This document shows, piece by piece, positions 180 to 12,818 of a stretch of DNA of 12,818 bases. The notes below the pieces were generated by a model that searched no databases, had not been told where the DNA came from, and worked only from the letters and a program-made list of their open reading frames with translations. The first letter of the stretch is position 1; every line of letters starts with the position of its first letter. The position numbers and the translations under genes are program-made. Origin of the DNA: a bacterium (GTDB lineage Bacteria > Electryoneota > JAOADG01); contig JAOADG010000020.1 in the NCBI GenBank assembly GCA_026417415.1, positions 1 through 12,818 on the forward strand, in the 5' to 3' direction.

Positions 180-915
180 AATGAATGGTGTACTTGTCAT
201 TCCCTAGTTCCATTATCAACTTAAAAGTTACGTGTTTTATATATTGAATAAATAACGGACTATCTTTTTGATTTGACAACTGATATAGATTTATTTTTAT
301 TATCCCAGTGATACCTTGATTCGGTAATAGAGAGTGTCGTTTCAACAAACTTGCATTGATTTCTGCATACTGTTGATTTTGGTGCTGCTGTAACCTCCCA
401 AGTTGTTCCATATTTTTTTGTTGAACTTCATACTTTTTTGTATAATCAATGGTTGTGGATTGAAGATTTATATCATGTCCATTTACTGTTCCATACGTAC
501 TCTGAGTGGAAACCCCAGCACTAAAACTCGATAATGCACTTGCAAATGATGCTACAAATAAGTTCCAATCATGCTGGCTTTTGATTTTTTTCATATACCC
601 TTTTGCATTATATACCCTTAAAGAGTACTCATTTTCATTATTATAACTTGCAAGAAATTGAAACTTCTCCGGAATTATATGGAGTAACGTATCCGAAGTA
701 TTTTTTATAATTAAGTTCAAGGTGATTTCATTGGAAGTAGATTGATAACCATAAATTCCGATAGTACTCTCTAATCCTTGAACTACAATTACTTCATTGT
801 CTTCAAAGTAAAAAATTTTCTCATGGTTTGGATCAACGATTTGAGGGGATAATAAATAATAACTTGGTGCGCAACCTAAAAACAACCAAGGAAAAATAAG
901 AAGTAAGTACCTCAT
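151..915 (-). CDS. Putative lipoprotein of unknown function
   Basis: 254 aa. The N-terminus MRYLLLIFPWLFLGCAP is a lipoprotein signal with lipobox LFLGC, predicting lipidation at Cys15 and cleavage before it; Ala at +2 would not retain it at the inner membrane under E. coli rules. Residues about 40-105 are strand-rich with a pattern like small immunoglobulin-like beta-sandwiches (NLIIKNTSDTLLHI). Residues about 120-160 are rich in Ala, Ser, Gly and Thr, and 160-195 is polar and Gln-rich (MEQLGRLQQHQNQQ), possibly a short coiled coil. The ATG at 915 has AGGAG about 8 bases upstream, lying over the end of the preceding gene, whose stop is only 2 bases away. This points to one operon with the 99-aa secreted protein. 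I do not recognise a named family. Confidence 0.8.
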   Translation of the reverse strand: MRYLLLIFPWLFLGCAPSYYLLSPQIVDPNHEKIFYFEDNEVIVVQGLESTIGIYGYQSTSNEITLNLIIKNTSDTLLHIIPEKFQFLASYNNENEYSLRVYNAKGYMKKIKSQHDWNLFVASFASALSSFSAGVSTQSTYGTVNGHDINLQSTTIDYTKKYEVQQKNMEQLGRLQQHQNQQYAEINASLLKRHSLLPNQGITGIIKINLYQLSNQKDSPLFIQYIKHVTFKLIMELGNDKYTIHFVPQNPILK

Positions 916-917
916 CT

Positions 918-1217
918 CTATCTCCTGAGTTTATAAGGATCAAAAGATTGATTGGGTTTGATTTGATACGGATAATTCCATTGTGGGGGTGTCACTTGAG
1001 TACCCCAACTTCCTGTATAGGGATTAATGTTGCCTTTGGTACTCCAGTTGTTGTAAAAATTGCCATCTGGAAATGAGCGATAGTGTTGATTGACGAATGT
1101 TCCGTTGGATCGTATATAACTTCTTACATACACATCATTCGTACCCGCTACTAAAGATGAATTGAAAACACATAAAACGAAAAATAAACCGATCAAAATG
1201 GTTTGAATTGCTTTCAT
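918..1217 (-). CDS. Small secreted protein with an Asn-Pro-Tyr-Thr-Gly motif
   Basis: 99 aa with a signal peptide: MKAIQTILIGLFFVLCVFNSSLVAG, probable cleavage near Ala24. The mature part begins VYVRSYIRSNGTFVNQHYRS and continues through DGNFYNNWSTKGNINPYTG. This matches a pattern common in short bacterial exported proteins (V+VRGY.R.dGTyV..H.R...dg...nNws..GN.NPYTG), often annotated as hypothetical; no function is established that I know of. About 75 residues remain after cleavage, with many Asn, Tyr and Pro and no Cys. The ATG at 1217 has AGGAG about 6 bases upstream, which fixes the start. It lies 2 bases before the lipoprotein gene and should be co-transcribed with it. Confidence 0.8.
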   Translation of the reverse strand: MKAIQTILIGLFFVLCVFNSSLVAGTNDVYVRSYIRSNGTFVNQHYRSFPDGNFYNNWSTKGNINPYTGSWGTQVTPPQWNYPYQIKPNQSFDPYKLRR

Positions 1218-1248
1218 GTTCTACTCCTATAGATTACCAAAACAAGGT

Positions 1249-1304
1249 TTGCCATCTTGAGAGAACTTAAACAGGGGACACCGCCTTTTCTATCAAGATG
1301 GCAA
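1249..1304. repeat. Perfect 12-bp inverted repeat around a 32-base spacer
   Basis: The arms are TTGCCATCTTGA (1249-1260) and TCAAGATGGCAA (1293-1304), perfectly complementary. The spacer contains GGGGACACCGCC followed by TTTT. It lies between the stop of the barrel gene (1324) and the start of the 99-aa secreted protein (1217). On the minus strand the second arm is followed by ACCTTGTTTTGG, so it could end transcription of the barrel gene, though the loop is long and the T tract poor. The alternative is a REP-like or miniature mobile palindrome, since GGGGACA-type cores occur in repeats linked to IS200-like REP transposases. That likeness is from memory and weak. Confidence 0.7.
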
Positions 1305-1323
1305 TAAAATTCCTTATACTCAA

Positions 1324-1911
1324 TCAATACAACATTCCGTTCACTGTTAACATAATCGCAGTTGTGTTCGTGGTCAGTGTTACACCATTCACTGTTTCAG
1401 ATGGTTCACCAAACCCCATACTTAGTTCTACACACCAATGTTTAGAAAATTCATAACCTGCTCCGAACATCACCCCTGAACCAGTAGAGCTGTTATCTCC
1501 ACTACTGCTCCATGCAATCCAAGTAGATCTACCAAAACCTCCGGAAAAATAGAAAGATGGTGCTTCTGTTTTGAGGTAATAACTTCCCGAGATAGTACCA
1601 TACCCAGCAGCCATATCCGAGGTACTTCCCGCAGCATTATCCATTTCAAACCAATTCACCTTTGAACTCCAGTAGATTGACCACTGATTTTGTGGAGCGT
1701 ACCCTATTTTGAAATTGGTCACAAATGGGTTCTTAGATTCTGAGCCAGAAACTGATCTATAAGGCGTGGACAGTTCTTGAGTGTAACTAATGCTTCCAAA
1801 TCCAATCCCAAAGCCGAGAATAAATCCTTGTCGTTCGTTATCAAAAGCATAAAGCGAGTGTGAAAAAACAAATATACAAAAGAGAATAGATAAACAGATC
1901 ATTTTGTACAT
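1324..1911 (-). CDS. Small outer-membrane beta-barrel protein
   Basis: 195 aa from the ATG at 1911. The signal peptide is MYKMICLSILFCIFVFSHSLYA, cleaved before FDNERQ. The mature part of about 173 residues alternates polar and apolar residues in strands split by Gly/Ser-rich turns: FILGFGIGFGSISYT, FVTNFKIGYAP, WSIYWSSKVNWFEM, GTISGSYYL, FYFSGGFGR, GVMFGAGYEF, WCVELSMGFG and AIMLTVNGMLY. That is about eight strands, with a C-terminal aromatic (Tyr) as in outer-membrane barrels. Size and pattern fit the eight-stranded OmpA/OmpW-like group. The frame stays open to a TTG at 1977, but AGGAG (1917-1921) lies 5 bases before the ATG at 1911, which begins exactly at the signal peptide, so I chose that start. 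No OmpA-like C-terminal peptidoglycan domain follows. Confidence 0.82.
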   Translation of the reverse strand: MYKMICLSILFCIFVFSHSLYAFDNERQGFILGFGIGFGSISYTQELSTPYRSVSGSESKNPFVTNFKIGYAPQNQWSIYWSSKVNWFEMDNAAGSTSDMAAGYGTISGSYYLKTEAPSFYFSGGFGRSTWIAWSSSGDNSSTGSGVMFGAGYEFSKHWCVELSMGFGEPSETVNGVTLTTNTTAIMLTVNGMLY

Positions 1912-1916
1912 ATTGA

Positions 1917-1921
1917 CTCCT
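1917..1921 (-). promoter_or_regulatory. Ribosome binding site fixing the barrel-gene start
   Basis: On the minus strand AGGAG is followed by TCAAT and then the ATG at 1911. It decides the start over the longer frame that opens at 1977, where no such site is seen and where the signal peptide would be buried behind 22 extra residues. Confidence 0.75.
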
Positions 1922-2018
1922 GTGTCTGGTGGTGAACGATGGAAAGAACTCCCAATCACGTAAAGAGGCATCATCAAACCACAATGAACTTAATGATTAC
2001 ATCATCATCTACAAATGG

Positions 2019-2047
2019 AATATAAATTCACAAGTTGAAAAAATCAA
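2019..2047 (-). promoter_or_regulatory. Candidate sigma70-type promoter for the outer-membrane barrel gene
   Basis: Reading the minus strand, TTGATT (2047-2042) and TATATT (2024-2019) are 17 bases apart, close to the TTGACA-N17-TATAAT consensus. Transcription would start near 2012, giving an untranslated leader of about 100 bases before the ATG at 1911. The surroundings are AT-rich, so chance matches are likely; the ideal spacing and correct orientation are the support. Confidence 0.4.
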
Positions 2048-2078
2048 GCAAAAGGTTGTGAATAATAAAATTTCCAAA

Positions 2079-2095
2079 ACGTCAAAAACTGACGT
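2079..2095. repeat. Short dyad ACGTCA-N5-TGACGT
   Basis: Two 6-base arms, ACGTCA (2079-2084) and TGACGT (2090-2095), are perfect complements around AAAAC. An outer pair, CCAAAAC (2074-2080) and GTTTTGG (2112-2118), is also complementary but overlaps the inner arm by two bases, so the two are alternatives. The site lies about 30 bases upstream of the candidate barrel-gene promoter, where an operator could sit. It may equally be a chance dyad in AT-rich DNA. Confidence 0.3.
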
Positions 2096-2116
2096 GCTGT
2101 AATGTTTTTTTGTTTT

Positions 2117-2188
2117 GGTTAATTGGAAAGGTCAAAAGCAAATTCAAATTTCACGAAGACAACTTCAAAACTGGTTAGAAAGGTCAAA
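2117..2188. repeat. Direct repeat with core GAAAGGTCAAA, two copies
   Basis: GAAAGGTCAAA occurs at 2126-2136 and 2178-2188, 52 bases apart (about five helical turns). Each copy is preceded by GGTTA, directly in the second copy and with four extra bases (ATTG) in the first. The copies lie between the microprotein gene and the barrel-gene promoter. Two same-orientation copies on one helix face would suit an activator or repressor site, but nothing in the window identifies a regulator. Confidence 0.35.
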
Positions 2189-2234
2189 TTGAAGCGTCTA
2201 AAAGAATAAAGGGGAATGGCGTTATTTGGGCCTG

Positions 2235-2357
2235 TTATTGATCTTCTTTTTCAACGTTACCATCCAGTTTCTCATCTGATTTAAAGCGCAATTTAATCAC
2301 AAAATATACTACCAATCCCACGAAACAACCTAAAAGTCCATAAAGATAAGGTTCCAT
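2235..2357 (-). CDS. 40-aa single-pass membrane microprotein
   Basis: The ATG at 2357 is preceded by TAGGAGGAATC, the most complete Shine-Dalgarno site in the window. The product is 40 aa: MEPYLYGLLGCFVGLVVYFV, then IKLRFKSDEK, then LDGNVEKEDQ. Residues about 4-21 form one hydrophobic helix; the Lys/Arg cluster (IKLRFK) right after it predicts, by the positive-inside rule, an outward N-terminus and a cytoplasmic tail of about 18 charged residues. The helix holds Gly8-Leu-Leu-Gly and Gly14, the kind of small-residue face used for helix pairing. The gene stands alone on the minus strand in a long spacer, about 120 bases from the repeats at 2126-2188 and far from the barrel gene. No known family is recognised. 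Confidence 0.6.
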   Translation of the reverse strand: MEPYLYGLLGCFVGLVVYFVIKLRFKSDEKLDGNVEKEDQ

Positions 2358-2360
2358 GAT

Positions 2361-2367
2361 TCCTCCT
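2361..2367 (-). promoter_or_regulatory. Strong ribosome binding site of the 40-aa microprotein
   Basis: Minus-strand AGGAGGA, with a short spacer (AATC) before the ATG at 2357. It is the main evidence, together with the membrane helix, that this very short frame is translated. Confidence 0.65.
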
Positions 2368-2901
2368 AGACCGAACGGCGTTGATTTGTATACTTATTTT
2401 TATGAAACAAAATGAAACGATATAGATTCTTACACCTGATAGTAATTATTGAAGTGTAAAATTAAATAAATAGAATTAAAGAATATACAGTTCATTACGA
2501 AGGTAATTGGTTCAAAATGAATTGTCAAGTTAGGTTTATTCAATTGAATTTTTTTAAAGACGAATTCTATTGAATAGGTTATTCCATTATATGTTTAAAG
2601 TTCAACAAAATTTCCAATGTTGTAAATTTTTGTAGGTGTTTTTATTGTATCTAACAATTCTTTTTTAATCTATTGGTCCAATCAAAATGAGAAGACCCGT
2701 ACGATTTCAAAAACTTTATGGATTCTTTCCAATCACAGAAAGTACAATGGTTCATAAGGCACCAAGTGCGCTGAAACACCAACTCAATGACACAGATTAC
2801 TTTCTTAATTTGCTAATTTTACAAATTCTTGATTACATTGCTATTTAGAATATCTTTAGTATTACTTCAAAGAAAACACAGAGTCGTTATCGAGTAGAAG
2901 A
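2368..2901. other. AT-rich intergenic region upstream of the glycan operon
   Basis: No convincing gene is seen here. It includes the palindrome TTCAATTGAA (2539-2548), part of a larger dyad TATTCAAT (2537-2544) / ATTGAATA (2569-2576), and many T and A runs. On the minus strand TATACA, about 40 bases before the microprotein ATG, could serve as a -10 box but has no good -35. A 53-codon plus-strand frame at 2687-2848 lacks a ribosome binding site. The region must carry the promoters for both the operon (plus) and the microprotein (minus). Confidence 0.5.
2829..2858 (+). promoter_or_regulatory. Tentative promoter of the glycan operon
   Basis: TTGATT (2829-2834) and TATCTT (2851-2856) are 16 bases apart, a weak sigma70 fit. 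The same bases also resemble the Bacteroidetes-type promoter (TTG, 19 bases, TATCTTTA against TAnnTTTG). Transcription would begin about 35-40 bases before the GH38 ATG at 2902. It is the best candidate near the start, not a strong match. Confidence 0.25.
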
Positions 2902-5900
2902 ATGAATCAGAAACAACCGAACCAACTTTTTACCTGTACCTTTCACGGATCGGCACAATCTTTATGGACTACCATTTCTGGGTATGATCAAACCTTATCG
3001 GGCAACTCCATCACTTACCAGTCCCCACATCCCAACGTCAAAAAAGGGCTTATCACCCGTGCGAAAGAAGGATTTCTTTCTATCCGTTGGCAAAGTGCTG
3101 TGGTACCCGACAATATTGAAGGTATGCTCCAGTTGGTGTTGCTAATCGGGATGGGTGGACCACAGTGGGCACCTCACGCATTTCACTTGGAAGTCAATCA
3201 CCAGTTGCTTTTTACCTTTTCCACCTATACCAATGGAACGTCAAGCAATTGGCTTAGGAAACACGAAAATGGTGCAGAGCTTGAGTTTCGGAAATTGTAT
3301 CAAGATGTTCATCAAGATGTATTTGGATATCTATTGCTGCGCTTACCCTCTACGGGGTACACTCGCGGTGAACCGCTGCACTTGGCGCTTAAGACCGAAG
3401 ATGCGCAAAGCAATGATTGGATCATCGTATTTGAACATCGGATTGGAAAACGCCCGTTTTTTCAAGTTGAACCCCTTTTGAAACACGAAGAGCATCATCT
3501 GGTTCAATTGGTTCGGATGGTGGTAGATGCCCTTGAAGACCAACAACTTTATATCCTTACCCCACAAAAAGAAATGCATTTTTCTTTGTCAATCGGTATC
3601 CATACGTTTGAAATCCCTATCCCTGCAGTAGAAACCGTTTCCGAAGAAAACATAATTCTAAACTATGCAGATCAAACCACTGAAACCGTTTCATTACGGC
3701 TTACACCCCTACGGCAACGGACCGTATATATCCTCCCCTACTCCCACAACGATATTGGGTACACGCACCACCAATTTGAAGTGGAAAAAAGACAATGGCA
3801 ACATATTGAACAAGCGGTTGAACTTTGGGAGCAGACCCGCTCCCGTCCCAACGGCGAATCAAGCAAATGGAATCTTGAGGTGTTGTGGGCACTGGATACG
3901 TGGCTTCAATCCACTACAAGACCTTGGAAAAACCGTTTTTGGAGAGCCGTCCAAGAAGGGGGTATCGGTCTGAATGCACTTTATGCCAACTTTTTAACGG
4001 GGATGGCTTCAGAACAAGAACTGTACCATTTTATTCAATTTGCTAAAGAATTGTGTGATCAACATCCAATACAGATTGATACTGCTGTAATGACCGATAT
4101 TCCTGGGTGCAATTGGGGATTGGTGAAAGTTTTGGCTGAAAATGGGATACGCTTTTTTTTATCTGCACCCAATGAATTTGATCGGGTTGGCAACATCTAC
4201 CAACAAGGTGACCAGCCGTTCTACTGGCTTGATCCCACCCAACAATATAAGATACTTTTTTGGATTGCAGGTGCAAGTTATTCCCTATTTCACCGTGGAC
4301 CACTTAGTAAAATGGGAGTGGAGCGGATGTTAGAATACTTAAGAACCTTGGAGACAAATCAATACCCCTATGATATGGTTGCACTCCCTTACACCATCGG
4401 AGGGGATAATGGACCTCCTGATCCGACTTTATCTGATTTCGTAGCGGAATGGAACCGACATTATGTTTCACCGACTTTGCGAATTGCAACGGTTACAGAA
4501 TTTTTTCACGATTTTGAAAAACAATACGGGAAAACTTTACCAACCCAATGGGGTGATTTGACCCCATATTGGGAAGATGGAGTTGGGAGCACTGCACGCG
4601 AAACGGCAATGGTACGGAACGCTGTAGATCTGTTGGTGCAAGCAGAGGCACTACAAACCTATCATTTCAAAAAGAATTCTCCGACCAAACAAATCCAAAG
4701 GGTTTGGCATCAAATTTTACTGTACGATGAACATACTTGGGGTGCATACAACAGCGTTTCTGAACCGGACCTCCCTGAAGTTAAAGCCCAATGGCACACC
4801 AAACAAAGGTTCGCTATTCAAGCTTACCAAGGAGCCACAAAACTATTGGATCGCACTTTACAAAAACTGTATCGCCATTTTGGAAAAGAGTCCGATGGGA
4901 TCGTGGTGAATTCTTTACCATGGGAGGAAAGCGGATGGGTTACGATTCCTAATCAGCCCCATTGGAAGAGCATCTTTCTTCTCAACACCAAGCAGTTGCT
5001 TCCCATTTACCACGATGATCCTTTTGCTCGGGTCTATATTCCCAAACTACTCCCATGGGAAATAAGTGGATTTGAGGGGCGTGCAGAAATGGTGGAACCT
5101 TTATCGTTTCCGCAACTGAAACGGAGTGCTTACCATATTGAAAATGAGTTCCTTCGCCTTGAGGTGAATCCACTTAGCGGTGCAATCCAAAGTTTGGTTA
5201 CCTTAAACGATGGAAAAGAGTGGGTTCAACCCCAATCACAGTACGGTGTCGGCGAGTTTCTTACTATTCTCGGAAAATTTCCCAACCAAGCCCAGCGTTT
5301 ATCCAAAGTACATATTCAAACTTCAGTTCATGCTGCAAAAGCGCAAATCACTATTCAAGCCCAAGCCCCTACATGTGATCATTTTCAAGCATGCTATCGC
5401 CTCTATCCCTACCAAGATTTTTTTGAAATGGAAATCAAATTCGTTAAAAAACCTCTCCGAGCCAAAGAAGCGATGCATATTGCCTTTCCGTTTCAAGTAG
5501 AAGGTGGTGTAGTACGATACGATGTTCCTTTTGGGTTTGTCCAACCGGAAGTCAACCAATTGAAAGGTTCCAATAAGAATTTCTTTTGTGCCCAAAGTTG
5601 GTTTGATGTTTCCAATGATACCGTTGGTCTTTGTTGCGTGATGTTAGACAGTTTTCTAATAGAAACAGAGGATATGATCGCAGAAATCGGATGGCGACCA
5701 TTTGCCCTTGACAAACCGCCGGTATTTGCTTATCTTCTAAACAATTATTGGCATACAAACTACAAAGCCGATCAAGAAGGTCTGATCCGTTTTCGTTTTA
5801 TGATTAAACCACATTTAACCTTTTCATATGAAGAGAATGTGCGTTTTGCTTTACAGATGAAACAAAGTATAGTCAGTTTTGCAAAAGAATTTAATGAATC

Positions 5901-5922
5901 AATTCATTCCAACAGCATTTAA
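2902..5922 (+). CDS. GH38-like alpha-mannosidase, cytoplasmic
   Basis: 1006 aa, no signal peptide. Residues 1-270 form a beta-rich domain of unclear family. The catalytic domain starts at about 273 with RTVYILPYSHNDIGYT, where His282 and Asp284 match the zinc-binding H-x-D of GH38. It continues with GGIGLNALYANFLTG (353-367), then MTDIPGCNWG (397-406), in which Asp399 is the likely nucleophile and metal ligand, and LLYDEHTWGA (606-615), where His611 is a likely metal ligand. A C-terminal beta domain from about 740 (IENEFLRLEVNPLSGAIQSL) is typical of GH38. GH38 enzymes cleave alpha-mannosides with retention; the HNDIGY and TDIPG variants place this in a divergent bacterial branch, so the exact linkage is unknown. 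It is the first gene of a five-gene operon. The upstream site (GTAGAAGA) is weak. Confidence 0.82.
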   Translation: MNQKQPNQLFTCTFHGSAQSLWTTISGYDQTLSGNSITYQSPHPNVKKGLITRAKEGFLSIRWQSAVVPDNIEGMLQLVLLIGMGGPQWAPHAFHLEVNHQLLFTFSTYTNGTSSNWLRKHENGAELEFRKLYQDVHQDVFGYLLLRLPSTGYTRGEPLHLALKTEDAQSNDWIIVFEHRIGKRPFFQVEPLLKHEEHHLVQLVRMVVDALEDQQLYILTPQKEMHFSLSIGIHTFEIPIPAVETVSEENIILNYADQTTETVSLRLTPLRQRTVYILPYSHNDIGYTHHQFEVEKRQWQHIEQAVELWEQTRSRPNGESSKWNLEVLWALDTWLQSTTRPWKNRFWRAVQEGGIGLNALYANFLTGMASEQELYHFIQFAKELCDQHPIQIDTAVMTDIPGCNWGLVKVLAENGIRFFLSAPNEFDRVGNIYQQGDQPFYWLDPTQQYKILFWIAGASYSLFHRGPLSKMGVERMLEYLRTLETNQYPYDMVALPYTIGGDNGPPDPTLSDFVAEWNRHYVSPTLRIATVTEFFHDFEKQYGKTLPTQWGDLTPYWEDGVGSTARETAMVRNAVDLLVQAEALQTYHFKKNSPTKQIQRVWHQILLYDEHTWGAYNSVSEPDLPEVKAQWHTKQRFAIQAYQGATKLLDRTLQKLYRHFGKESDGIVVNSLPWEESGWVTIPNQPHWKSIFLLNTKQLLPIYHDDPFARVYIPKLLPWEISGFEGRAEMVEPLSFPQLKRSAYHIENEFLRLEVNPLSGAIQSLVTLNDGKEWVQPQSQYGVGEFLTILGKFPNQAQRLSKVHIQTSVHAAKAQITIQAQAPTCDHFQACYRLYPYQDFFEMEIKFVKKPLRAKEAMHIAFPFQVEGGVVRYDVPFGFVQPEVNQLKGSNKNFFCAQSWFDVSNDTVGLCCVMLDSFLIETEDMIAEIGWRPFALDKPPVFAYLLNNYWHTNYKADQEGLIRFRFMIKPHLTFSYEENVRFALQMKQSIVSFAKEFNESIHSNSI

Positions 5923-5938
5923 CCATTGAGGTGGTCCT

Positions 5939-6913
5939 ATGGCAATAGAACGATATGAAAAAAATCCTATATTAACCTATAGAGACATTCCCCCGATAAC
6001 CTATGCTTGGAATGATGTAAGCAGTGTTTTTAATCCTGCAGCCATTTTGTACGATAACAAAATCATTTTACTTTTGCGTATTCAAAATCGTGGACGAGAG
6101 ACCTCTTTTGCTGTGGCTGAAAGTCAAGATGGTAAATTGTTTCAAGTTCGTCCCAAACAGTTTGAAATTTTAGGTATTCCAAAACTGAATTCACCGATCT
6201 ACCATATCTATGACGCACGACTTACTCTGTTGGAAGGGAAAATTTACATGACCATTGCTATGGATCTTGACAATGTCACCCTTAGTGCTTTATGTGAAGT
6301 TCATCCAAATTTTGATTTTGCTAAATTTCTCTGCTTTTTGACGGATCTTGATTCACGCAATGCCGTGTTGTTTCCTGAAAAAATCAACGGTCACTATTAT
6401 GCGCTCATTCGCCCGAATAACGTTGCTGGTGCAATAGTAACCACAGGCAGCATCATCACACTTTTGTCCTCAACCGATTTAAACCATTGGCAAAACGTAG
6501 GAGAAGTAATGCAAGGTCGGCTACGGTATTGGGATGAATGGATTGGTGCAGGCCCACCACCGATTAAAACCAAGTATGGTTGGCTTTGCATCTATCATGG
6601 AGTAGCCACTCATTTTGGTGCTGGAAACATCTACCAAATGGGGGTCGCAATGCTTGACCGTACCCATCCTAACAAAGTGATTGGACGCTCCCGTTACAAC
6701 TGTTTGGAGCCAAGAGAACCCTACGAGTTGATGGGACAAGTACCGAATGTGGTCTTCCCTACCGGAATTGTCGTATTAAATTACGACGAAGAGGGAAATG
6801 CTTTACCCGAATCACGCTTTCTACTTTATTATGGTGCAGCAGATACTTGCGTAGCACTGGTACGAGGTACTATCCAAGATTTAATCAATGCCTGCTTTGA
6901 GGGGGCGCGATGA
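5939..6913 (+). CDS. GH130 beta-1,4-mannoside phosphorylase
   Basis: 324 aa, the usual length for GH130, no signal peptide. Motifs in order: YEKNPILTYRDIPP (6-19), VFNPAAILYDNKIILLLRIQN (30-50), YDARLT (91-96), DSRNAVLFPEKING (138-151), IGAGPPPIKT..GWLCIYHG (202-221) and VVFPTGIVV (271-279). Asp92 is the likely general acid. Arg140, Asn141, Arg158, Lys210 and His220 fall where GH130 phosphorylases bind phosphate, so phosphorolysis is more likely than hydrolysis. The family converts beta-mannosides plus phosphate to mannose-1-phosphate; beside GH38 and GH20 the likely substrate is Man-beta-1,4-GlcNAc from N-glycans, though beta-mannan oligosaccharides cannot be excluded. GAGGTGG sits 4 bases before the ATG, and the gap from GH38 is 16 bases. 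The stop overlaps the next start as ATGA. Confidence 0.9.
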   Translation: MAIERYEKNPILTYRDIPPITYAWNDVSSVFNPAAILYDNKIILLLRIQNRGRETSFAVAESQDGKLFQVRPKQFEILGIPKLNSPIYHIYDARLTLLEGKIYMTIAMDLDNVTLSALCEVHPNFDFAKFLCFLTDLDSRNAVLFPEKINGHYYALIRPNNVAGAIVTTGSIITLLSSTDLNHWQNVGEVMQGRLRYWDEWIGAGPPPIKTKYGWLCIYHGVATHFGAGNIYQMGVAMLDRTHPNKVIGRSRYNCLEPREPYELMGQVPNVVFPTGIVVLNYDEEGNALPESRFLLYYGAADTCVALVRGTIQDLINACFEGAR

Positions 6914-7824
6914 ATGTACGATGGCTGGTGCTAATTTTGTTGTTTCCTCTTGTTGCTGTGGGTGATCCCAATTTTCCAACCCCACAGATACCCTATCAAC
7001 CTAAACGTTATCTTTGTACTTTTACTACGGCATCCCCAGTTATAGATGGTCAAATCAACGATCCTTGTTGGCAAAATGCTGCTTGGAGCGATCTCTTTGT
7101 GGATATTGAAGGGGATCTAAAACCCAAACCGTATCGTCAGACCCGCGTGAAAATGGTATGGGATTCGGCTTACTTTTATGTTGCTGCATATTTAGAAGAG
7201 CCCCATTTGTGGGCAACTTACGATCAAAGAGATATGGTGATTTACCACGAAAACGATTTTGAAGTGTTTATTGATCCTGATTATGATACGTACAACTATT
7301 ACGAGTTAGAACTGAATGCTTTGAATACGGTTTGGGATCTCCTTTTAACCAAGCCGTATCGGGATGATGGTTGCGCAATAGATGATTGGGATATCAAGGG
7401 GTTAAAGACCGCCGTGCATTTGTATGGAACTTTGAATAACCCCCTGGATGTGGACAGTTGTTGGACGGTAGAAATTGCATTCCCTTGGAAAGCGCTTGCA
7501 CCTTGTGCCAAGCGACCTACACCACCTCGTCACGGCGATGCTTGGAAAGTTAATTTTTCAAGGGTTCAATACGATTTGGATGTGGTCCACGGAAAATACC
7601 AAAAACGCAAAGATGCTAAAAGTGGGAAGCCCTTACCAGAATACAATTGGGTGTGGTCTCCACAGGGGCTCATTGCCATGCACTATCCGGAACAGTGGGG
7701 TTGGGTAATCTTTTCTACCACATCACAAGCACCCCAGCAAACTGATCCGCCTTTAACCGAGGAAAGTGAACGACAACGGGAGCGCATTTGGAAGGAGTAC
7801 TATCAAAAACGACTCACCGAATAA
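6910..7824 (+). CDS. Secreted CBM9-like carbohydrate-binding protein
   Basis: 304 aa. The signal peptide is MNVRWLVLILLFPLVAVG with cleavage near residue 18. From about 35 it is one CBM9-like domain (the CBM9_2/DUF1083 type): SPVIDGQINDPCWQNAAWSD (42-61) is the classic opening, followed by RVKMVWDSAYFYVAAYLEE (79-97), NDFEVFIDPD (115-124), YYELELNALNTVWDLLL (130-146), WTVEIAFPWKAL (185-196) and WKVNFSRVQYD (212-222). The last 35 residues are charged and tail-like. No catalytic domain is attached. It starts inside the stop of GH130 (ATGA) with GAGGGGG just upstream, so it is translationally coupled. It is the operon's only exported glycan-related protein and could capture sugar in the periplasm or outside; whether this subfamily truly binds sugar is not settled. 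Confidence 0.85.
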   Translation: MNVRWLVLILLFPLVAVGDPNFPTPQIPYQPKRYLCTFTTASPVIDGQINDPCWQNAAWSDLFVDIEGDLKPKPYRQTRVKMVWDSAYFYVAAYLEEPHLWATYDQRDMVIYHENDFEVFIDPDYDTYNYYELELNALNTVWDLLLTKPYRDDGCAIDDWDIKGLKTAVHLYGTLNNPLDVDSCWTVEIAFPWKALAPCAKRPTPPRHGDAWKVNFSRVQYDLDVVHGKYQKRKDAKSGKPLPEYNWVWSPQGLIAMHYPEQWGWVIFSTTSQAPQQTDPPLTEESERQRERIWKEYYQKRLTE

Positions 7825-7862
7825 CCCCCTAAATTTTTCCATTTCAAATAGTAGAGTAAACT

Positions 7863-9827
7863 ATGATCCTTACTCCGATTGATCTTGCGATTGTACTGGG
7901 ACTACTGATTCTAATGGTGAGTACGGTGATGACCAGTCGCTCCCAAATGAAAAGTGTAGCCGATTTTTTAGCCGCAAACCGATCTGCAGGTAGATATCTA
8001 ATTGCAGTTTCTGGTGGGATTGCCGCCATTGGCGCCATCACCATTGTGGGAAATTTTGAAATGAATTTTATGGCGGGCTTTGCCATGACTTGGTGGGGAA
8101 TGTCCATGGGGGTGATTATCCTTTTGGTCACATTGAGTGGTTGGGTGGTGTATCGCTTTCGTCAAACCCGCTGCCTTACCTTAGCACAATTCTTTGAAGT
8201 GCGTTATTCCAGAAAATTCCGTATCTTTACTGGGATGCTGGCATTCTTTTCCGGAATTGTGAATATGGGAATTTTTCCTGCCGTAGAAGCTCGTTTCTTT
8301 ATTTACTTTTGTGGACTCCCACATACCGTTGAGTTTTTGGGAATTGAACTTTCAACCTTTGCCCTCATTATGGCCACACTGATAGGTATCTCCATTTGGT
8401 TTGTGTTTAGTGGCGGCCAAGTGGCAGTGATCGTATCTGATTTTTTTCAAGGGACTTTTGTGAACATCGTGATGGTGTTGATGGTGGTCTATTTTGCACT
8501 CAAAGTAGATTGGAATTTGATATTTGAAGCATTGCAACAAGCACCGGTGAACAAGTCCTTAATTAACCCCTTCAAAACGGGCGAAGTGGAAAATTTCAAC
8601 TTTTGGTATTTTTTAATCGGTGTAGTGGGTTACCTATATTCTGTAATGTCTTGGCAAGGGACTGGCGCTTACAACGCTTCGGCAGTCAATCCGCACGAAG
8701 CCAAAATGGCAGGCGTACTCAGTTTATGGCGCGGCATTCCTCAATCCATTATGATGGGTTTTATTCCTATTGTGGCTTATACGGTTCTGAATCATCCTCA
8801 TTTTGCAGAGATTGCCAAAGAGATTGGGAATCAAATGATTGGTATTCATCCGGAAGCGGTGCGCAGTCAAGTGAAAGTCCCGTTGGTGTTGCAACACTTG
8901 CTCCCAACGGGATTGATGGGCGCTTTCGTAGCAGTGATGCTTAGTGCTGCTATCACCACGGAAGCCACTTATATGCATTCGTGGGGTAGTATTTTGGTAC
9001 AAGATGTGATCCTCCCATTACGGAAGAAACCGTTCAGCAACCCCAAACAACATTTACTTGCGTTGCGGCTTGCCATTCTGTTTGTTGCAGTATTTATTTT
9101 CTGCTTTAGTTTACTGTTTAAGCAAACCCAATACATCTTCCTCTTTTTTGCCATAACGGGTGCTATTTTTGCAGGGGGTTCGGGTGCTGTGATTATTGGG
9201 GGATTGTATTGGAAATATGGGACTACTCCCGCTGCTTGGGCTGCATTGATCACCGGCTCTACCATTTCCGTTGTCGGGATCATAATCCACCATTATCATG
9301 AGAATTTCTTTATCAATGGGCAAGAATTTTGGGCGATTTCCATGGGAGCATCCGCGTTTATGTTTGTGCTTGTTTCTTTGATCGGCAAACGCAAAGTGTA
9401 CGATTTTGACAAATTGTTCCACCGTGGAAAATATGCATTAGCAGAAGACCAAGTGATACGGGAAACGGTTGCAGACCGCTTTTGGAAACTTTTTGGCATG
9501 GGAAAAGAGTTTTCTTGGGGTGATCGTATCATCTACATCGCCAACTATGTTTGGACTGTAGGATGGTTTCTGGTATTTATTATTGGGACCATTTACAACT
9601 TATCCAATGAAGTGAGCGATGCAGGTTGGATGAAGTTTTGGAAAATCCATTTAGCCATTCATTTAGGGTTAGCCGTAATTTCGGTCATTTGGTTTACCAT
9701 TGGGGGGGTTTTTGACTTACGTAAAATGTTTCGTTTGCTAAGCACACGAAAACGGGATGTCCGAGACGACGGGTTCGTCCGACCAGAAGAACAATTGCCA
9801 TCAGTAACAAGCGAGTCCCAACTATGA
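7863..9827 (+). CDS. SSS-family sodium:solute symporter
   Basis: 654 aa inner-membrane protein. Helix 1 is at 7-24. SVADFLAANRSAG (31-43), VFSGGQVAVIVSDFFQGTFV (181-200) and MLSAAITTEATYMHSWGSILVQDV (359-382) are SSS (LeuT-fold) signatures; Thr365/Thr366 in the last lie where Na+ ligands are expected in helix 8. Other hydrophobic segments include 45-70, 74-96, 121-148, 162-182, 247-268, 290-308, 345-363, 400-418, 423-447, 456-475 and 488-507. Two more helices (about 556-578 and 594-614) follow a loop at 508-550, longer than classic SSS carriers. It is likely the uptake route for the sugar degraded by its neighbours, driven by Na+, but SSS substrates cannot be read from sequence. A 38-base gap with a weak ribosome site precedes it. 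Confidence 0.88.
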   Translation: MILTPIDLAIVLGLLILMVSTVMTSRSQMKSVADFLAANRSAGRYLIAVSGGIAAIGAITIVGNFEMNFMAGFAMTWWGMSMGVIILLVTLSGWVVYRFRQTRCLTLAQFFEVRYSRKFRIFTGMLAFFSGIVNMGIFPAVEARFFIYFCGLPHTVEFLGIELSTFALIMATLIGISIWFVFSGGQVAVIVSDFFQGTFVNIVMVLMVVYFALKVDWNLIFEALQQAPVNKSLINPFKTGEVENFNFWYFLIGVVGYLYSVMSWQGTGAYNASAVNPHEAKMAGVLSLWRGIPQSIMMGFIPIVAYTVLNHPHFAEIAKEIGNQMIGIHPEAVRSQVKVPLVLQHLLPTGLMGAFVAVMLSAAITTEATYMHSWGSILVQDVILPLRKKPFSNPKQHLLALRLAILFVAVFIFCFSLLFKQTQYIFLFFAITGAIFAGGSGAVIIGGLYWKYGTTPAAWAALITGSTISVVGIIIHHYHENFFINGQEFWAISMGASAFMFVLVSLIGKRKVYDFDKLFHRGKYALAEDQVIRETVADRFWKLFGMGKEFSWGDRIIYIANYVWTVGWFLVFIIGTIYNLSNEVSDAGWMKFWKIHLAIHLGLAVISVIWFTIGGVFDLRKMFRLLSTRKRDVRDDGFVRPEEQLPSVTSESQL

Positions 9828-11395
9828 ACCACTACCACACTGATTTATCTGTAAAAAACATTACTTTGGTGGAAACTGAACCTTTGAATCTTCAACAATT
9901 CATTGGCTTTCAATTTTCGGAGTATAATCCGATGCTTGCTCCTTTTGTTGAGACCTTGGAAATAGAAGCATTGGACCAAAATCTTCCTATTCGGCGAGCT
10001 AACGAAGTTAGCGAGGATTGTACACCCCTTATCTTTCATCATTCTGAATCGGTTCACCCTGAAGGGTATATTTTAACCATTCAAGCGAATGGTATTGAGA
10101 TTTATGCTTCCGACCGTGTGGGTTGGTGGTACGGGTACCAGACGTTACTAAACCTTTTGAAGCAACAAATAAAGTCCAAATGCGGATGGTCACTCCCTTG
10201 CTGTCGTATCAATGATTACCCTACTTATTCTTGGCGGGGGATGCATTTGGACGTGGTGCGTCATTTCTTCCCTATTGAAAACGTTTTGCAATACATCACC
10301 ATCCTTTCACGATTGAAATTCAATCGTTTTCATTGGCATCTAACAGACGATCAAGGTTGGCGGATTGAAATTCCGCAGTATCCACGTTTGCAAGAGATCT
10401 CAGCGTTCCGAATCAATAGTCATTGTCAGCGATATGGGGGGTATTATACACAAGCAGAGATTAGAAAAGTAGTGGAGTTTGCAGCCTTAAGAGGAATTAC
10501 AGTGGTTCCGGAAATTGAAATGCCGGGCCATTCCAGTAGCGTTTTTGCAGCGTATCCCCAATTTACTTGTCGTGAGGGGAGTTATACGGTCCCTACGGAA
10601 TGGGGAATATTTGAGGATGTTTATTGTGCTGGTAATGATGAAGGGCTTACATTTATCAAAAGCGTAATTGATGAGGTTCTGCAACTGTTTCCCTCTAAGG
10701 TGATTCACATCGGTGGGGATGAGTGTCCCAAAACTCGTTGGAAAGAGTGTCCAAAATGTCAAATGCGAATGCAGAAGCACAATTTAAGAAACGAAGATGA
10801 ACTCCAAAGTTGGTTTATGGGTCAAATCGTAGAATACTTGCACAGCAAAGGACGGCACGCCATCGGTTGGAATGAGATCTTAGAAGGGGGACCTCCAAAA
10901 GGAGTGATGGTAATGGCGTGGCAGAATATGCAAGTTGGATATCTTGCTGCCGCCTTAGGACACGACGTGGTGATGTGTCCGATGGAGTATTGCTATTTCG
11001 ATTCGTATCAAGGTCCACGAGAAACAGAACCTACCGCATTTCCAAGAGATGTATATCTTGAAAAAGTTCAACAATTTGACCCACTTTTAGTTGATGAAAT
11101 AGAAAAATTTATATCAACTAACCATTATCACTTGACAACTAAATATTTTAATGTTAAATTTGGTGAATTCAATCATTTCCCTTTTAGCAAGATTGATTTT
11201 ATTGAACGGATTAAGGAGCATATCCTCGGCGGACAAGGGTGTGTTTGGACGGAATATATGGAAGATTGGAAACAGGTTGAGTATATGCTGTTTCCAAGAA
11301 TCAACGCATTGGCAGAAACATTGTGGGGAAAAGAAACCAAAGGGATGTCAGAAAAGGGTCAAGTGATTGGGTTGACTCTTTTGAATAAAATCTAA
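9824..11395 (+). CDS. GH20 beta-N-acetylhexosaminidase, cytoplasmic
   Basis: 523 aa, no signal peptide. Residues 1-125 form the small alpha/beta domain before the barrel (YILTIQANGIEIYASDRVGWWYG at 82-104). The barrel starts at YSWRGMHLDVVRHFFP (135-150), then FHWHLTDDQGWRIEIP (169-184), VVPEIEMPGHSSS (227-239) and HIGGDECPK (295-303). Asp299 and Glu300 are the catalytic pair of substrate-assisted GH20 enzymes. Active-site Trp appear in IGWNEI (347-352), MAWQN (364-368) and CVWTEY (473-478). The enzyme releases terminal beta-GlcNAc or GalNAc. Oddities: an insertion at about 421-466 in unusually AT-rich DNA, and a C-terminus that ends about 20 residues after ALAETLWG where homologues continue, with a possible frameshift. 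The start overlaps the symporter stop as ATGA. Confidence 0.88.
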   Translation: MNHYHTDLSVKNITLVETEPLNLQQFIGFQFSEYNPMLAPFVETLEIEALDQNLPIRRANEVSEDCTPLIFHHSESVHPEGYILTIQANGIEIYASDRVGWWYGYQTLLNLLKQQIKSKCGWSLPCCRINDYPTYSWRGMHLDVVRHFFPIENVLQYITILSRLKFNRFHWHLTDDQGWRIEIPQYPRLQEISAFRINSHCQRYGGYYTQAEIRKVVEFAALRGITVVPEIEMPGHSSSVFAAYPQFTCREGSYTVPTEWGIFEDVYCAGNDEGLTFIKSVIDEVLQLFPSKVIHIGGDECPKTRWKECPKCQMRMQKHNLRNEDELQSWFMGQIVEYLHSKGRHAIGWNEILEGGPPKGVMVMAWQNMQVGYLAAALGHDVVMCPMEYCYFDSYQGPRETEPTAFPRDVYLEKVQQFDPLLVDEIEKFISTNHYHLTTKYFNVKFGEFNHFPFSKIDFIERIKEHILGGQGCVWTEYMEDWKQVEYMLFPRINALAETLWGKETKGMSEKGQVIGLTLLNKI

Positions 11396-11441
11396 AATCT
11401 GAAAAATACTTCTTAACCATTTGTACTATTCTTAATCTTTG

Positions 11442-12122
11442 ATGCAAATTTTAAAGTTACAGTTTCTGAATGGATTGATTTTCGTTGAGATTTGTGGGAA
11501 CCTATGGTTTCTGGATACGGGTGCCCCGTTTACCTTTGGTTACCGTCCCCATCTTGACATTGATGGACGATCGTTTTCAGTGCAACCACGGCAAAACGAT
11601 AGGATCATTGATTCATTGATACGGAATCACGATGCAAGAGTGGTGGGATTTTTGGGGAATAATGTCATCAATTTATTGGATTTTATTTTTCATCTCCCCA
11701 AAAACTTTTGCATTGTATCCCAAAAAGAGCTGCAACTTGAAGGGCAAGCCGTTCCTATTACAAAGCGACACGGTCCATACCGCTTGAACGTTACCATCAA
11801 AGAACGCCAATTTACCACCATTTTTGATACGGGTGCAGAAATCAACTACATCCAAGATGACATCATTCGCGAGTTTGAACCGATGGGTAGGTTTGATGAT
11901 TTTAATCCGTTTCTGGGGCACTTTCATTCAGAAACCTATCGTGTGGAGGTGTGGATTGGTGGAATTCTGTTTCCTTTGAGGTGTGGTTTTTTACCAGAAG
12001 CAGGGATCCGACCGTTCCTTCGGGTTGGAGTCCAAGGGGTGATTGGAAATGCGATTATGCACCATCGGGTTGTGGGCTATTTTCCCAGACGAAACCTGTT
12101 GGTGCTGGGCGAAGAGTGTTAA
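11442..12122 (+). CDS. Small bilobal aspartic-protease-like protein (retropepsin-type), copy 1
   Basis: 226 aa, no signal peptide or membrane helix. It carries two DTGA motifs, WFLDTGAP (Asp25) and TIFDTGAE (Asp129). Each is followed by the hydrophobic-Gly element of retropepsin-like folds: GFLGNNVI (69-76) and GVIGNAIM (199-206). Each half is about 105-115 residues, one retropepsin lobe, so the chain looks like a fused dimer forming one active site. The stretch FEPMGRFDDFNPFLGHFHSE (145-164) is strongly conserved in the neighbour. I start at ATG 11442 rather than the TTG just before it, because the paralogue aligns from that Met without gaps; no ribosome site is obvious. It lies 46 bases after GH20, possibly in the same transcript. 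Peptidase activity is inferred from motifs only. Confidence 0.75.
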   Translation: MQILKLQFLNGLIFVEICGNLWFLDTGAPFTFGYRPHLDIDGRSFSVQPRQNDRIIDSLIRNHDARVVGFLGNNVINLLDFIFHLPKNFCIVSQKELQLEGQAVPITKRHGPYRLNVTIKERQFTTIFDTGAEINYIQDDIIREFEPMGRFDDFNPFLGHFHSETYRVEVWIGGILFPLRCGFLPEAGIRPFLRVGVQGVIGNAIMHHRVVGYFPRRNLLVLGEEC

Positions 12123-12189
12123 TGGAGTATTTTTAACCTGTCTTTAGAGGCGGTTGGTTTTTTGAAAAATTTTTCCTTGGAGTTTTTTT

Positions 12190-12818
12190 ATGCAACGATA
12201 TCCTTTACTTTTCAAAAGAGGGCTAATTTTTATAGAAGTTTCCAATCATCTATGGATATTGGACACGGGCGCTCCAAACAGTTTTGGAGATATCTCTCAA
12301 ATAGAACTTGATCACCAGTTGTTTTCTATACAAAAGAGTTTTATTGGAATTTCCAGAGCATTCTTGTCGCCCAACTTTGGTTCCGATTTTATCGGTTTGA
12401 TAGGAAATGACGTGATCAATCAATTTGATTTCATTTTTAATCTCAAACATGGTGAATTGATTGTATCTAATGAAGAACTAAAGTGTGACGGACAAGAAGT
12501 ACCATTTACTCAACTACTTGGATCACCTATTGTAAATATTACTATTCAAACTCAAACCTATTCCATGATATTGGATACGGGTGCAGAAATCAGTTATCTC
12601 CATCATAATTGGATATCACAATTTCGTCCCATGGGCCGTTTTGATGACTATAACCCGATTTTAGGTAAATTTAGTTCAGAAACCTATCAGGTAGAAATGA
12701 ACTTAGGTGGTGTAAAGTTTTCTGTGCGGTGTGGAATTTTTCCTGAAGAATCAAGCCACTTATTGTCTATGTTCGGTGTAGATGGAATCCTGGGGAATCC
12801 CATTCTACACGATAGAGT
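12190..12818 (+). CDS. Small bilobal aspartic-protease-like protein, copy 2 (3' end outside the window)
   Basis: The 209 visible residues begin MQRYPLLFKRGLIFIEV. The frame is open to the window edge. DTGA motifs lie at Asp25 (LWILDTGAPN) and Asp129 (MILDTGAEIS), exactly as in copy 1. Second elements are GLIGNDVI (69-76) and GILGNPIL (199-206). Hand alignment with copy 1 is ungapped over all 209 residues with about 94 identities (45%); the longest shared block is PMGRFDD.NP.LG.F.SETY.VE (147-169). GGAG (12179-12182) lies 7 bases before the ATG, a better ribosome site than copy 1 has. The 67-base gap contains GAAAAATTTTTC but no clear terminator, so the two may share a transcript. This is an old tandem duplication; both copies keep all four motifs. 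Confidence 0.75.
   Translation, partial: MQRYPLLFKRGLIFIEVSNHLWILDTGAPNSFGDISQIELDHQLFSIQKSFIGISRAFLSPNFGSDFIGLIGNDVINQFDFIFNLKHGELIVSNEELKCDGQEVPFTQLLGSPIVNITIQTQTYSMILDTGAEISYLHHNWISQFRPMGRFDDYNPILGKFSSETYQVEMNLGGVKFSVRCGIFPEESSHLLSMFGVDGILGNPILHDR

Follow-up and report, generated by a model that had tools for sequence, protein, structure and literature searches.

Can a whole aspartic protease, with two catalytic lobes in a single chain, be made in 226 residues and kept in the bacterial cytoplasm? The question is raised by two adjoining genes, here called ASP1 and ASP2, at the 3' end of the window, by which we mean the whole 12,818-nucleotide stretch of DNA that was analysed: an entire contig (C25) of a 2.2-Mb genome in 40 contigs. 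It touches on an older one, since the origin of two-lobed pepsins from a one-lobed, dimeric ancestor is a long-standing question (PMC2761423). We think it likely that the two genes encode paralogous endopeptidases of clan AA that stay in the cytoplasm, each a single chain made of two unequal lobes of the retropepsin type.

Two genes, four motifs

ASP1 is an intact reading frame. ASP2 runs off the end of the window after 209 residues, so a length of about 226 amino acids for both, as a first-pass annotation gave it, holds for ASP1 and cannot be seen for ASP2 in the window alone. The missing C terminus appears to be supplied by another contig, C30, the end of which (as reverse complement) matches the final 97 nt of C25 apart from four synonymous differences, then adds 17 residues and a stop (VVGYFPRRNVMVLGEVH), giving 226 residues in total if the two are joined. 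The fragment on C30 may continue ASP2, the differences being strain variation at the contig break, or it may belong to a third copy of the gene; a whole-genome search found no further copies beyond it. ASP2 (12190-12816) has 36% GC and a GC3 of 30%, against 44% for both in ASP1. Elsewhere on C30, positions 623-7951 hold two cyclopropane-fatty-acid-synthase-like methyltransferases together with amine-oxidase-like, desaturase-like and lipocalin-like proteins, all called by eye.

Table 1. Coordinates of the features discussed, in window positions unless stated otherwise
Feature	Position	Strand	Remarks
GH38, GH130, CBM9-like exported protein, sodium:solute symporter	2902..9827	+	
GH20 beta-hexosaminidase	9824..11395	+	stop 46 nt upstream of ASP1 start
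ASP1	11442..12119	+	intact ORF, 226 aa; two-lobed aspartic-protease-like; without signal peptide
ASP1 lobe 1 DTGA, residues 25-28	11514..11525	+	context FLDTGA
ASP1 lobe 1 psi-loop element GFLGN, residues 69-73	11646..11660	+	Gly72 = Asp25 + 47 residues
ASP1 lobe 2 DTGA, residues 129-132	11826..11837	+	context IFDTGA
ASP1 lobe 2 candidate flap PMGRFDDFNPFLGHFHSETYRVE, residues 147-169	11880..11948	+	block best conserved between copies
ASP1 lobe 2 psi-loop element GVIGN, residues 199-203	12036..12050	+	Gly202 = Asp129 + 73 residues
ASP2	12190..12818	+	209 aa within window; truncated at contig end
ASP2 lobe 1 DTGA, residues 25-28	12262..12273	+	context ILDTGA
ASP2 lobe 1 psi-loop element GLIGN, residues 69-73	12394..12408	+	
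ASP2 lobe 2 DTGA, residues 129-132	12574..12585	+	context ILDTGA
ASP2 lobe 2 candidate flap PMGRFDDYNPILGKFSSETYQVE, residues 147-169	12628..12696	+	
ASP2 lobe 2 psi-loop element GILGN, residues 199-203	12784..12798	+	
C25/C30 overlap	12722-12818 = C30 (L004, G000:C30) 16319-16415		97 nt

The motifs that first drew attention to the pair are where they were said to be. DTGA begins at residues 25 and 129 in ASP1 and ASP2 alike, and each DTGA is followed by a hydrophobic-Gly element (GhhGN at 69-73 and 199-203 in both copies). Clan AA is marked, among other things, by hydrophobic-hydrophobic-Asp-Thr/Ser-Gly, which is present in every lobe of both proteins, and by a psi-loop of hydrophobic-hydrophobic-Gly, which is found as FLG/LIG at 70-72 and VIG/ILG at 200-202 and is aligned by profile. 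Two DTGA motifs in one sequence arose in none of 200,000 shuffles of ASP1.

The copies are identical at 94 of 209 positions in a gap-free alignment, the 45% that had been claimed. The claim that both are under selection also stands: the NG86 method gives a pN of 0.35 and a dN of 0.47 at a pS of 0.757, which is to say that synonymous sites are saturated, and selection has therefore preserved the protein. The codon-level dN/dS proposed for the pair thus makes constraint evident but, with dS saturated, yields no ratio. Among 11-residue blocks the most identical are the one holding the first DTGA (8/11) and two successive blocks over PMGRFDDxNPxLGxFxSET (8/11 each); the DTGAP of lobe 1 is fully identical in both copies. 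The best conserved block, PMGRFDDxNPxLGxFxSETYxVE, lies at the flap position of lobe 2. All of this evidence on conservation comes from two paralogues and one 97-nt overlap, with no orthologue.

Orthologues of the pair were absent from 38 genomes of the phylum in single-sequence and profile searches. Two sub-threshold matches in the profile search were set aside, L005 since it lies in an unrelated 866-aa frame and L006 with an E of 0.11 in an 854-aa frame. A GTDB scan with short exact peptide patterns returned 141 stretches, none confirmed, and one with the DNA of MGRFDDxNP returned 10 matches, none of them a relative on inspection; viral contigs gave no homologue by short exact patterns. Diverged relatives would escape each of these three scans. 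Phages and plasmids held no homologue.

Lobes of unequal size

Are both halves really aspartic-protease lobes? Pfam, one of the checks proposed at the outset, answers in part. Against RVP (PF00077, cut-off 20.7) ASP2 scores 23.3, but across 28 residues only, and ASP1 14.4; against Asp_protease_2 (PF13650, cut-off 24.3) the scores are 13.8 for ASP1 and 19.9 for ASP2, the latter match spanning all of ASP2 lobe 2. Both fall below the PF13650 cut-off, and we therefore call ASP1 and ASP2 relatives, not members, of Asp_protease_2. ASP1 is below every Pfam cut-off, lobe 1 alone matches no Pfam model even at an E of 10, and at that same E the pair has no match to a pepsin-family model. Searches of PHROGs, NCBIfam and Rfam added nothing of use on either protein. 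Lobe 1 and lobe 2 show no similarity when compared directly; in pepsins, similarity between the lobes is likewise limited to the DTG and psi-loop motifs (PMC2761423).

Because Pfam recognises lobe 2 only, we built a profile of our own from 38 lobes detected with PF13650, some in this phylum and some in other genomes. A profile of lobe 1 from the two copies matches it at an E of 8.3e-6 (a single comparison; score 32.7), with DTGA and the GFLGNNVI psi-loop aligned and a long deletion between them, and that of lobe 2 at 7e-7 (again a single comparison; score 38.9). Sixty shuffles that kept the DTGA block reached maxima of 28.4 for lobe 1 and 32.0 for lobe 2. Set against six two-lobed proteins, the pair profile aligns through lobe 2 (E 5.4e-6, a single comparison) and, in a second and collinear alignment, over a stretch that starts at psi-loop 1, takes in DTGA 2 and ends at psi-loop 2 (69-206; E 8.1e-5, likewise a single comparison), and a further comparison with two-lobed proteins puts lobe 2 at 2.6e-5; the six proteins and the 38 lobes overlap as reference sets. 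Taken together, the profiles support an assignment of both halves of ASP1 and ASP2 to the aspartic-protease lobes of clan AA.

The lobes are not equal, however, as they had been supposed to be, each with its own flap. From catalytic Asp to psi-loop Gly there are 73 residues in lobe 2 and just 47 in lobe 1. The reference lobes, which had been pre-filtered for 50-92, run from 57 to 84; a recheck at 30-110 added a single ambiguous case at 50, and the protein concerned offers an alternative at 74 as well. In HIV protease the catalytic residue is Asp25, the flap covers about 43-58 and the psi-loop Gly is Gly86, a spacing of 61. By that yardstick, lobe 1 would be about the size of an HIV-protease-type lobe minus its flap. 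Forty-seven residues are too few for an ordinary flap, and lobe 1 therefore probably lacks one. The conserved block at 147-169 sits 18-40 residues past Asp129, a position that would match that of the HIV protease flap after Asp25. We infer a single flap per chain, on lobe 2. AlphaFold, run on two-sequence alignments with ASP1 or ASP2 first, gave models with a pLDDT of 32.5 and 35.1, unusable as structures; in both, residues 142-172 are drawn as a long hairpin that turns near 156-158, at a low local pLDDT of about 35-52.

Location, neighbours and rival readings

Where would such an enzyme work? With DTGA at residue 25, and with a TTG at 11439, one codon before the ASP1 start, as the earliest start codon that the preceding stop allows, there is no room for an N-terminal extension and hence for a signal peptide. 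Most exported two-lobed proteins are more hydrophobic at the N terminus than the pair. The residue after DTG is Ala in each of the four motifs; in the second lobe of pepsins, replacement by Ala at this place is tied to a neutral pH optimum, as in renin and HIV protease (PMC2761423), and by analogy suggests one for ASP1 and ASP2. With that Ala and no signal peptide, a neutral, cytoplasmic enzyme would be expected. Of the fused cytoplasmic retropepsin dimer first imagined, then, two lobes by profile, the lack of an export signal and the constraint on the motifs survive, but the equality of the lobes does not.

In the enzyme we favour, the catalytic dyad would consist of Asp25 and Asp129, placed where the two lobes meet. 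Lobe 1 would have no flap-forming stretch, and the flap of lobe 2 (block 147-169) would close over the substrate. As in pepsin, each active site would then have a single flap, though the C-terminal lobe would carry it. No part of the two copies is better conserved than this flap block, and ASP1 and ASP2 therefore probably cut similar target sequences. Their likeliest role would be limited proteolysis of an intracellular substrate. More tentatively, the pair may be a minimal natural cytoplasmic enzyme that arose by independent fusion of retropepsin lobes and subsequent reduction, losing the flap N-terminally and keeping it C-terminally, which is pepsin reversed.

The neighbours hint at another job. 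The five-gene plus-strand cluster at 2902-11395 resembles a pathway for cytoplasmic breakdown of N-glycan type. ASP1 and ASP2 could belong to this glycan operon and degrade the peptide part of glycopeptides imported with N-glycans, a role compatible with the enzyme we favour; given GH38, GH130 and GH20 next door, such trimming of peptides on imported glycans is the alternative function, and on balance we doubt it. The genes share a strand, ASP1 follows closely on the GH20 stop, and the gap between them has no terminator-like or sigma-70-like promoter site. GH38, GH130 and GH20 have no signal peptide, which would place their action, like that of the pair, in the cytoplasm. The tie is one of adjacency, however. 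Orthologues of the pair are lacking in the 38 phylum genomes, and in the nearest relative (G023), which has no copy of ASP1 or ASP2, the GH38 homologue (49% identity) stands with no other window genes alongside, on a contig that ends 4.9 kb downstream. The deviating composition of ASP2 also speaks against this role, and the sodium:solute symporter of the cluster is no evident importer of glycopeptides.

Two further readings change what the chain itself does. ASP1 or ASP2 might not be self-contained, lobe 2 pairing with lobe 2 of another molecule, as a homodimer or an ASP1-ASP2 heterodimer, and lobe 1 being accessory or regulatory. Such an arrangement would account for Pfam recognising lobe 2 only and for the lack of a flap-sized stretch in lobe 1, and two co-located paralogues could heterodimerise; yet lobe 1 has kept its psi-loop and a DTGAP identical in both copies, and a two-lobed relative of solved structure (9iy9) has both lobes in one chain. 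We consider it unlikely. Alternatively, the two-lobed fold may have been kept for binding peptides or proteins instead of cutting them. The catalytic activity of the pair is, after all, a prediction, and some two-lobed relatives have probably lost the second catalytic motif: in L062 and L063 (genomes G039 and G045), both two-lobed Asp_protease_2 proteins, the second lobe reads VDSAAS and VDSASS. In ASP1 and ASP2, on the other hand, four of four catalytic motifs are intact DTGA despite copies that differ at 55% of positions, and a mere binding protein seems to us quite improbable.

Comparison with known aspartic proteases

A two-lobed architecture new to bacteria was considered and dropped, and with it the idea that a fused two-lobed retropepsin is a distinct kind of protein: judged by sequence, fused single-chain retropepsin-like proteins in bacteria are already known. 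Of the phylum's own genomes, G026 encodes three two-lobed Asp_protease_2 proteins (290, 314 and 431 aa) and G032 one with a PDZ domain; more occur in MAGs labelled Verrucomicrobia, Bacteroidetes and uncultured bacterium. PDB entry 9iy9 ('Exported protein', 420 aa), for which we found no descriptive paper, aligns over both lobes with a profile of the two-lobed proteins at an E of 1.3e-21. Like ASP1 and ASP2, these exported proteins (PF13650 twice) carry two DTG/DSG lobes per chain with a psi-loop GhhG in each, and their profile similarity to the pair is detectable. Those examined differ in length, their two lobes taking up about 250-280 residues against 226 in all here, in an Asp-to-Gly spacing of 72-84 residues, against 47 in lobe 1 of the pair, and in location, with hydrophobic export-type N termini in all six inspected and no signal in ASP1 or ASP2. 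What looks new here is the small size, the missing signal peptide and the asymmetry of the lobes. The phylum also offers single-lobed genes: L038, L047 and L048 (genomes G008, G038 and G037) are retropepsin-like, 123-145 aa long, with DSGA, and lie in neighbouring pairs.

Retropepsins (A2) are homodimers of one flap-bearing lobe (PMC12239564, PMC11957791). Lobe 2 of the pair resembles one such lobe (RVP), whether of a retropepsin or of the single-lobed bacterial RimB, RloA and APRc, but ASP1 and ASP2 have two lobes in one chain, the first apparently short for the usual flap. RimB has a cytoplasmic target, ribosomal protein RpsF (PMC11957791), and the pair, too, would act in the cytoplasm. Pepsins (family A1, including the bacterial shewasins) share with the pair a single chain, unequal lobes and, as proposed here, one flap; they are about 330 residues long, however, and their flap (Tyr75) precedes Asp215 and so belongs to the N-terminal lobe (PMC2761423), whereas ASP1 and ASP2 have 226 residues and no Pfam pepsin match. 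Even as no more than a divergent relative of the exported two-lobed Asp_protease_2 proteins, the pair would be uncommon in being cytoplasmic. If our reading is right, its short two-lobed chain, in which one lobe is reduced, would represent a compact design of an intermediate-like kind, easily testable and near in size to the engineered tethered dimers of HIV protease (203 residues; 1hvc, 1g6l). Those share its overall plan, with weak and non-significant sequence matches (E 0.6-1.3); they are artificial, with near-identical lobes and two flaps, whereas ASP1 and ASP2 are natural and unequal.
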